A stretch of 64,000 nt of DNA, taken from positions 372,001 to 436,000 of the forward strand of contig NZ_MWQI01000002.1 in NCBI RefSeq assembly GCF_002210345.1, read 5' to 3'. Made by a program: the position numbers and the translations under genes. The DNA is from Fibrobacter sp. UWB4. GTDB lineage: Bacteria > Fibrobacterota > Fibrobacteria > Fibrobacterales > Fibrobacteraceae. This document shows, piece by piece, positions 47,618 to 49,622 of the stretch (position 1 is its first letter; every line of letters starts with the position of its first letter). The notes below the pieces were generated by a model. The model saw only the letters and a program-made list of their open reading frames with translations, had not been told where the DNA came from and searched no databases.

Positions 47618-48334
47618 TTAATCTTTCAGCAGTTCCGGGTGTTTTTCGGAGATGCGGCGGGCAAGGTACACAAACGGCGTGTCCATGAGCGACGTCACGA
47701 TGAAAATACCATAGCCGAACACGAGAATTTCGCCAATGGTATTCCACGGGAAAACGCCCGCAAACGCAAGCAAGTTGAACACGACCACGTTAATCAGCTG
47801 GCTCACAAGCGTAGAACCATTGTTACGCAACCACAGGAATCCTTTGCGATTGCCGAACTTCTTTTCGGACCATTTCCAGACGGCGTGGTAAGCCCAAACG
47901 TCATACGCTTCGCAGACGGCATAGGCAAACAAGCTCGCGAGCATCACGCGAGGCGTATTCGAGAACACCGTACGGATCGGTTCGGCCATTGTATCGCCTG
48001 CAGCCGGGATGTACAAAAACCAGCTTTGCGAAATGAGAATAAACGTCACATTCGCGAGGATGCCGATTTTCACGCAACGGCTCGCCTCCTTTTTGCCATA
48101 GATTTCGCTCATCATATCCGTTGCGAGGAAGGAGGATGCAAAGATGACATTGCCGAGCGTCGTATCAAGCCCAAAAGCGTGCACGAGAATCAAGACTTCG
48201 ATATTTGCGGCAATCGTTGCAATGACGGTCCAAGCGAAAATGCCCTGTTTGCCAAAGAAGCGGAAGAAAGCGACGAGACCTCCAAAGAACACGAAAATGG
48301 AGGCAATCATAAGGAGTTCGTTTTGTAGAGGCAT
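47618..48334 (-). CDS. Queuosine precursor transporter (YhhQ/QPTR family)
   Basis: This 238-residue membrane protein has six helices and the family motifs NVIFASSFLATDMMSEIYGKKEA, SLFAYAVCEAYDVWAYH, FLWLRNNGSTLVSQLINVVVF and the terminal FGYGIFIVTSLMDTPFVYLARR. YhhQ-type transporters import preQ0/preQ1 for queuosine synthesis. The queF gene lies just upstream on the same strand with a repeat element between, so a shared queuosine function is well supported. Confidence 0.88.
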   Translation of the reverse strand: MPLQNELLMIASIFVFFGGLVAFFRFFGKQGIFAWTVIATIAANIEVLILVHAFGLDTTLGNVIFASSFLATDMMSEIYGKKEASRCVKIGILANVTFILISQSWFLYIPAAGDTMAEPIRTVFSNTPRVMLASLFAYAVCEAYDVWAYHAVWKWSEKKFGNRKGFLWLRNNGSTLVSQLINVVVFNLLAFAGVFPWNTIGEILVFGYGIFIVTSLMDTPFVYLARRISEKHPELLKD

Positions 48335-48498: not shown

Positions 48499-48975
48499 TC
48501 AACGCCTTCTATCTATCGCAGAAAACAAGCGATTCTTGGCGATAGCTTCGAATTCGGTACCCGGCTTGCCGTAGTTTGCAAACGGATAAAGCGAAATGCC
48601 ACCGCGCGGCATAAAGATGCCTTCGACTTCAATGTACTTCGGGTCGAGTAATTTCACCAAGTCCTTCATGATGATGTTCACGCAGTCTTCATGGAAGTCC
48701 CCGTGATTGCGGAACGAGAACATGTAAAGCTTGAGCGACTTGGATTCCACCAAATACTGGTCCGGAATGTAGTTGATCTTGATTTCGGCAAAGTCCGGCT
48801 GACCGGTTTTCGGGCAAAGGCTCGTGAATTCCGGGCAGTTGAACGTGACCATGTAATCGTTACCCGGATGCTTGTTCGGGAACTTTTCGAGCACTTCGGG
48901 GCTGTAAGTGGTCTTGTACTGGGTCTTGTTATTGCCGAGCAGCGTAACGCCTTCGAGTTCAGCTTCTGAACGCAT
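48499..48975 (-). CDS. queF: NADPH-dependent 7-cyano-7-deazaguanine reductase
   Basis: This 158-residue enzyme of the short, unimodular QueF type reduces preQ0 to preQ1. The catalytic Cys lies in [14 protein letters not shown], and the QueF motif [22 protein letters not shown] (Glu, Ser-Lys and His-Glu residues) is intact. The start is ATG 48975 with GGAGA upstream. A probable preQ1 riboswitch overlaps the ribosome binding site. Confidence 0.95.
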
Positions 48976-48978
48976 AAA

Positions 48979-49022
48979 GTCTCCTAGTTTTGTTTTAAGT
49001 CAGGATGGTTTTCGAACTGACC
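48979..49022 (-). promoter_or_regulatory. Probable preQ1-I riboswitch of queF
   Basis: Read on the minus strand, a 5-bp stem GTCAG / CTGAC encloses a 13-nt loop (TTCGAAAACCATC) and is followed by an A-rich tail TTAAAACAAAAC and then CTAGGAGA, the queF ribosome binding site. Small stem, C-containing loop, A-rich tail and overlap with the Shine-Dalgarno are the features of preQ1-I aptamers. The P2 pseudoknot pairing is not fully clear by eye. Confidence 0.5.
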
Positions 49023-49074
49023 GATTTTGAGCACAAATATAGAAAAAAGAATGCTAAGCAATCTTTCGCACGAA

Positions 49075-49449
49075 TCAAAAAGCAAGTGCATTCACCCAAT
49101 AACAGACAGCGGTAATCACAGAAAGCGGCGTCATCACAATTTTTTCTTTTTTGCTTTTCGAGAACATATTTCCGAAACAATTCAGCGTCAAATAAACCGC
49201 AAAGGCTATTCCAACAATTTTAGTGACTTTATGAGAAAACCACAGGGACATATAGCCACCGAGCTGCAAAAGTATAACGGCAAAGAAAACCTGCAAAAGC
49301 AACTGTACCGCAAGCACAATACGCAATTTTGCAGGAAAAACTTTAAAATGACCACCCAAGGTGAACGCGCCTAGCGGAGCTCCGAAAATCAAGGCAACAC
49401 TCATTATAACAACGAGAAATAGCAGAACCGCACCGATTATTGCTGTCAT
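49075..49449 (-). CDS. Small membrane protein of unknown function
   Basis: ATG 49449 is chosen because GGAGG lies 5 nt before it; the frame is open 36 bp further. The 124-residue product has four hydrophobic helices (GAVLLFLVVIMSVALIFG, LRIVLAVQLLLQVFFAVILL, VGIAFAVYLTLNCF, PLSVITAVCYWVNALAF) with short basic loops. No family is recognised. Confidence 0.6.
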   Translation of the reverse strand: MTAIIGAVLLFLVVIMSVALIFGAPLGAFTLGGHFKVFPAKLRIVLAVQLLLQVFFAVILLQLGGYMSLWFSHKVTKIVGIAFAVYLTLNCFGNMFSKSKKEKIVMTPLSVITAVCYWVNALAF

Positions 49450-49622
49450 AAGAACCTCCAAGAATTGATTTAAATATAACTCCAAAGCAAGGACTTATTA
49501 GCAGTCAACTAGAGATTCATAGATGTTTTGTCAATGGAAGTTTTCACCCCAAGAGGGACATTCCTATGTTTTCGAGGTATTTTATTGTTACGTGCTGTTT
49601 CCTAAAAAAATCTGGGGTCGCA

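Follow-up and report, generated by a model that had tools for sequence, protein, structure and literature searches.

A probable preQ1-I type I riboswitch at the queF ribosome-binding site

The queF leader in the window, which is the whole 64,000-nucleotide stretch of Fibrobacter sp. UWB4 DNA analysed here, very probably carries a riboswitch of preQ1 class I, type I, which controls queF translation and, by operon position, perhaps the expression of yhhQ. What was observed of the element is its sequence, the structure of P1, its conservation, its geometry and the genes it is paired with. It occupies 48979–49022 on the minus strand and reads as a stem GGTCAG, a 13-nt loop TTCGAAAACCATC, the strand CTGACT, an A-rich segment and finally CTAGGAGA. 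The P1 5′ strand GGTCAG (49017–49022) was placed by sequence, RF00522 alignment and covariation, and the loop (49004–49016) by sequence and RF00522 alignment. The P1 3′ strand CTGACT spans 48998–49003, in which CTGAC takes up 49003–48999 and the last T is the G-U partner of 49022. It is followed by the A-rich loop L3 (TAAAACAAAA; 48988–48997), placed by sequence and alignment A1, and by CTAGGAGA (48987–48980), which ends 4 nt 5′ of the queF ATG (48975). The Shine-Dalgarno AGGAG (48981–48985) lies 5 nt 5′ of the ATG and overlaps the putative P2 3′ strand (48983–48987), which in the numbering of PMC8752633 comprises C31 (48987), U32 (48986), A33 (48985), G34 (48984) and G35 (48983). The order of GTCAG/CTGAC stem, C-containing loop, A-rich tail, CTAGGAGA and ATG described in the earlier note was thus confirmed on the minus strand.

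The gene behind the element, at 48499–48975 on the minus strand, encodes a 158-aa preQ1 synthase (QueF-II; TIGR03139, 175.1 bits against a cut-off of 86.9). The YhhQ-type gene noticed nearby was identified as a queuosine precursor transporter gene (47618–48334, minus strand; TIGR00697, 169 bits, cut-off 50.95). The gap between queF and yhhQ is 164 nt in the window. Of 30 genus loci, 28 have a yhhQ gene downstream of queF in the same orientation, and the two genes overlap or sit within about 12 nt of each other in 18 of those 28 pairs. The window yhhQ is probably in one operon with queF.

Covariance-model searches and gene partners

The preQ1 model of Rfam (RF00522), which the earlier note had proposed to run, matched the window leader with 26.0 bits and an E-value of 0.00091 (131 bases searched against 4227 Rfam families). 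The alignment covered all 45 positions with one additional loop nucleotide and three additional nucleotides after P1. That check came out in part: the match was the best in the genome, but it fell short of the RF00522 gathering score of 39. At the gathering threshold, a tRNA was the sole Rfam match in the whole window and no riboswitch was returned; none of the 61 genus genomes reached the RF00522 gathering score. Over the 3.58-Mb genome, the queF leader ranked first (E 0.0059), a site directly 5′ of queC (TIGR00364) ranked second (22.8 bits, E 0.038) and the third-ranking site had an E-value of 0.79. Behind the queC of this second aptamer come genes for members of the QueD (Pfam PTPS) and QueE families. 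With lax thresholds, RF00522 also gave weak matches in 14 of 14 control genomes (E up to 10) and in 6 of the 14 (E up to 1), and its score is therefore not decisive by itself. The gathering score is a curation threshold and no structural feature of preQ1-I riboswitches, and a leader before queT (Pfam; L051) likewise scored just 25 bits by RF00522.

Two further models were used. Model R1 was built from 30 leaders with the window included, and its score for the window is therefore not independent. Model R2 was built from 11 Bacillota-type leaders, themselves found via R1, and contains zero Fibrobacter sequence. Over the 3.58-Mb genome, R2 returned the queC leader (E 4.7e-9) and the queF leader (E 3.2e-8), and the next match had an E-value of 2.7. 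Across the phylum, R2 had matches at E 1e-4 in 52 of the 167 genomes, which belong to two of 40 genera.

Matches to R1 at E 0.01 were obtained in 63 of 111 family genomes, five of which had a weak match only (E 0.001 or worse), while 58 had a match at E 4.7e-5 or better. When a gene partner was defined as one on the same strand within 420 nt downstream, all 105 strong R1 matches in the family (E up to 4.7e-5) were found to precede queF (51), queC (40) or queD (14). This count uses R1 and not the regular expression with which 97 distinct family copies were collected, as the latter missed at least one real copy (L236). The expression also fixes CAGTTCGA, CCTG and AACTAGG, and base invariance among the 97 copies is thus partly imposed. 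Ten weaker R1 matches (E 0.001–0.01) included three that are pieces of queF leaders (G046, G070 and G074), and the six that were inspected (L200–L203, L206 and L207) had no recognisable queuosine gene behind them.

Conservation within the genus and the family

Among the 48 genus genomes having queF, all had an R1 match and 47 had the aptamer directly 5′ of queF, in line with the conservation in relatives that the earlier note had suggested checking. In the exception (G046; L109, G046:C80), the stem and loop were gone upstream of queF and the A-rich tail and Shine-Dalgarno were kept, which may mean either that the switch was lost naturally or that the assembly is faulty. Two of the 20 listed genus genomes without queF had an R1 match, strong in G091 only, and at least one of 15 further genus genomes without queF (G099) had a strong one. 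The nearest named relatives of the window QueF were from Fibrobacter succinogenes MAGs (L001, L002 and L006; 93–98% identity). Outside the genus, six queF leaders from three other genera (L136–L140 and L142) had no aptamer, but in the four of these cases that belong to genus g10 it was found 5′ of queD (L198, L199, L232 and L233). Twelve genomes with distant queF-like genes (39–46% identity; L143–L154) had no R1 match at E 0.01.

Two observations were made by eye. Genus queD leaders (L194–L197, L204, L205, L231, L234 and L235) carry a GC-rich inverted repeat directly 5′ of P1. In one locus (L192; G061:C25:35387-35439), the aptamer runs into inner queC and the start of queC is missing, through either a deletion or an assembly error.

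The P1 stem showed covariation in alignment A1, where 99.4% of cells were paired. Changes on both sides of P1 pairs were seen in 18 cells against 6.7 in shuffles, with two of the six pairs varying: the pair at columns 12–33 switches from U-A to A-U (17 versus 13), and five standard forms were seen for the outer pair. The P2 bases were invariant in A1 and hence uninformative for covariation.

The possibility that the element is a chance hairpin beside a ribosome-binding site was weighed against these results. Its RF00522 score lies under the gathering score, control genomes give weak RF00522 matches as well, and the fold energy of the window P1 stem is no better than that of shuffled sequences (z = +0.41). 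A chance hairpin would, however, hardly be kept 5′ of queF in nearly all genus genomes with queF; it is refuted by the placement of every strong R1 match before queF, queC or queD, and by a Fibrobacter-free model that picks just the queC and queF leaders from the entire genome. We consider this explanation extremely improbable. The two best sites of the genome both lie at queuosine genes and the element is conserved in relatives, which settles that the aptamer is real. The proposal of the earlier note, a preQ1-I aptamer placed directly on the ribosome-binding site of queF, was upheld by the RF00522 and R2 matches, the genus-wide conservation and the queuosine gene partners.

Assignment to type I

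The definition of type I in a review (PMC11625349) comprises UC before the P1 3′ strand, UU after the 5′ strand and C in the tail. All three marks are present in the window aptamer, which is thus assigned to type I. In the Carnobacterium numbering of PMC8752633, the loop has U6 (49016), U7 (49015), C8 (49014), G9 (49013), A12 (49010), U16 (49005) and the specificity base C17 (49004), and A30, C31, U32, A33 and G34 follow in the tail. The window aptamer shares with the type I RNAs of Carnobacterium antarcticus, N. gonorrhoeae and H. influenzae and with RF00522 a predicted H-type pseudoknot layout, an A-rich L3, the GUUCG...UC-C loop, the CUA tail on the Shine-Dalgarno and the association with queuosine genes. 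It differs from the Carnobacterium RNA in a loop (L2) longer by one nucleotide and in having A at base 10. The C10-G34 pair, hypothesised for the Carnobacterium RNA in PMC8752633, is accordingly absent and there are few canonical P2 pairs. From the RF00522 consensus it differs in the three extra nucleotides after P1, the sub-gathering score and the Fibrobacter host. Type II aptamers (B. subtilis, T. tengcongensis) share the class I pseudoknot and the C that reads preQ1, but they have AC before the P1 3′ strand where the window has UC (PMC11625349). Type III (E. coli) shares the Shine-Dalgarno control and the UU after the P1 5′ strand; according to the same review, it differs in having AC at the specificity site and one ligand.

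The 13-nt loop had been taken in the earlier note as a hint of a divergent subtype. This was corrected: the loop of the Carnobacterium type I reference is 12 nt long (U6 to C17 by the text numbering of PMC8752633), its length among the 47 genus leaders is 12 nt (12 leaders), 13 nt (26 leaders) or 14 nt (9 leaders), and the signature bases of type I are present.

It was also considered that the aptamer might resemble type I yet take up only a single preQ1, or else a related 7-deazapurine (e.g., preQ0), in place of two preQ1. Base 10 and the longer L2 depart from the Carnobacterium RNA in a way that could fit this alternative, U16 is replaced by G in four of the 47 genus queF leaders, and the substrate of QueF is preQ0 (PMC11625349). 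On the other hand, U6, U7, U16, C17, A30 and C31, the bases named for the two preQ1 sites in PMC8752633, are all in the window. The loop of a Neisseria queF leader (L014) is the same as that of the window but for one A, and the type I RNAs of N. gonorrhoeae and H. influenzae bind two preQ1 according to the same paper, L014 being from another Neisseria. We regard the one-ligand or preQ0 alternative as unlikely, though it deserves some weight, and favour a type I aptamer for two preQ1 molecules.

Proposed mechanism and transcription context

By analogy with the family, ligand binding, a two-ligand pocket, P2 and an off-switch may be expected of the window aptamer. When preQ1 is scarce, the tail would be free and ribosomes would bind AGGAG. 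When preQ1 is plentiful, it would be bound by C17 and neighbouring bases, by homology as two preQ1 molecules stacked in the pocket, and P1 and P2 would stack to form an H-type pseudoknot whose A-rich strand occupies the groove of P1. Closure of the pseudoknot would hide the Shine-Dalgarno because AGGAG begins within the P2 strand, and burial of its first bases would turn off the enzyme that makes preQ1, as end-product feedback.

By homology, translational shut-off by preQ1 is the best-supported mechanism, since the short interval up to the ATG could hardly hold a terminator and a scan between the aptamer and queF found none. The lone terminator-like site in the scanned stretch was inside queF, with 1.0 expected by chance, and was set aside. 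A preQ1-I riboswitch acting through transcription termination would find room for a terminator in several Bacillota-type loci, where the aptamer lies about 60 to 120 nt 5′ of the gene. In the window, the Shine-Dalgarno is formed by the tail of the aptamer itself, the ATG follows 5 nt on and the scanned interval holds no terminator-like site, all of which makes termination a very unlikely mode of action here as compared with control of translation.

A candidate −7 promoter box, TATATTTG, was read from the sequence at 49034–49041 on the minus strand, 11 nt 5′ of GGTCAG. It corresponds to TANNTTTG, which we take to be the −7 promoter box of Bacteroidota or a similar one. This motif was found no more than 40 nt 5′ of P1 in 55 of the 97 distinct family leaders (raw count), at a spacing of 5–7 nt in 36 leaders and 11–16 nt in 18 leaders. 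The whole window contains 47 matches of the motif against 34.7 expected, a number reached in one of 100 shuffles. The box shortly upstream of P1 suggests that the queF mRNA starts near the aptamer. A scan for sigma-70-type promoters found no site directly 5′ of the aptamer. Upstream of the queF leader lies an ORF of 136 aa (49075–49485, minus strand), which looks hydrophobic by eye and had no Pfam or NCBIfam match at E 0.001.

An extra hairpin in part of the genus

Twenty of the 47 genus queF leaders (among L082–L110 and L119–L125, e.g., L082:1410-1497 and L083:1409-1497) carry an extra hairpin of 16–43 nt between P1 and the A-rich strand; the window copy is without it. The insert was found in none of the 36 distinct queC and none of the 12 distinct queD leaders. 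All 18 distinct inserts were predicted to fold as a hairpin (mean z −3.0, mononucleotide shuffles), and the outer pairs UAG/CUA were invariant in 18 of 18. Covariation in the insert was thin, with three pairs fixed, a fourth changed on both sides with pairing kept in one sequence, and a fifth unpaired in four of the 18. The UAG(G) of the Shine-Dalgarno recurs in the 5′ arm, and the Shine-Dalgarno UAGG is complementary to the 3′ arm, with G-U in two inserts. Folds of 11 chosen whole leaders were not uniformly stable (z −3.7 to +0.6). It is conceivable, if rather doubtful, that the insert represents a third helix, acquired by the type I aptamer in some members of the genus, that could compete for the ribosome-binding site as a second layer of control. 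The Victivallales leaders (L008–L010) carry a different hairpin at the same place. We found no report of such a class I insert among the literature matches listed, and a 2014 survey of preQ1 classes may describe it; three-stemmed pseudoknots in general are the subject of PMC11262651, by its title.

The aptamer beyond the genus and its significance

Model R1 also matched outside Fibrobacter. Among 80 queF loci, the queF leaders of Treponema (L003–L005) and Victivallales (L008–L010) were matched, and in Bacillota-type records the matched leaders included those before queT (L051), yhhQ (L063) and queD (L034). The Treponema-labelled queF-yhhQ pairs (L003–L005 and L007), of which L003–L005 have the aptamer, encode QueF 80–85% and YhhQ about 79–80% identical to those of the window, and the likeness suggests either that the cassette was transferred horizontally or that the contigs were misbinned. 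In one Treponema queF leader (L005:2887-2918), the aptamer is followed by a perfect inverted repeat, its centre 2 nt long, and then by a second ribosome-binding site before queF.

Searches of the literature on a preQ1 riboswitch in Fibrobacter, Fibrobacterota or Fibrobacteres found no paper, and the titles found for Fibrobacter succinogenes riboswitches and Fibrobacter queuosine were off topic. The review (PMC11625349) lists six phyla after the word “including”, and this list does not contain Fibrobacterota. Judged by sequence and context, the queF leader element appears to be a genuine and ordinary representative of preQ1-I type I, a known kind of riboswitch. Very similar copies in Fibrobacter and in several Bacillota-type loci are missed at the present Rfam threshold, and the finding would extend the type I preQ1 switch, with its sensing of two stacked ligands, to Fibrobacter.
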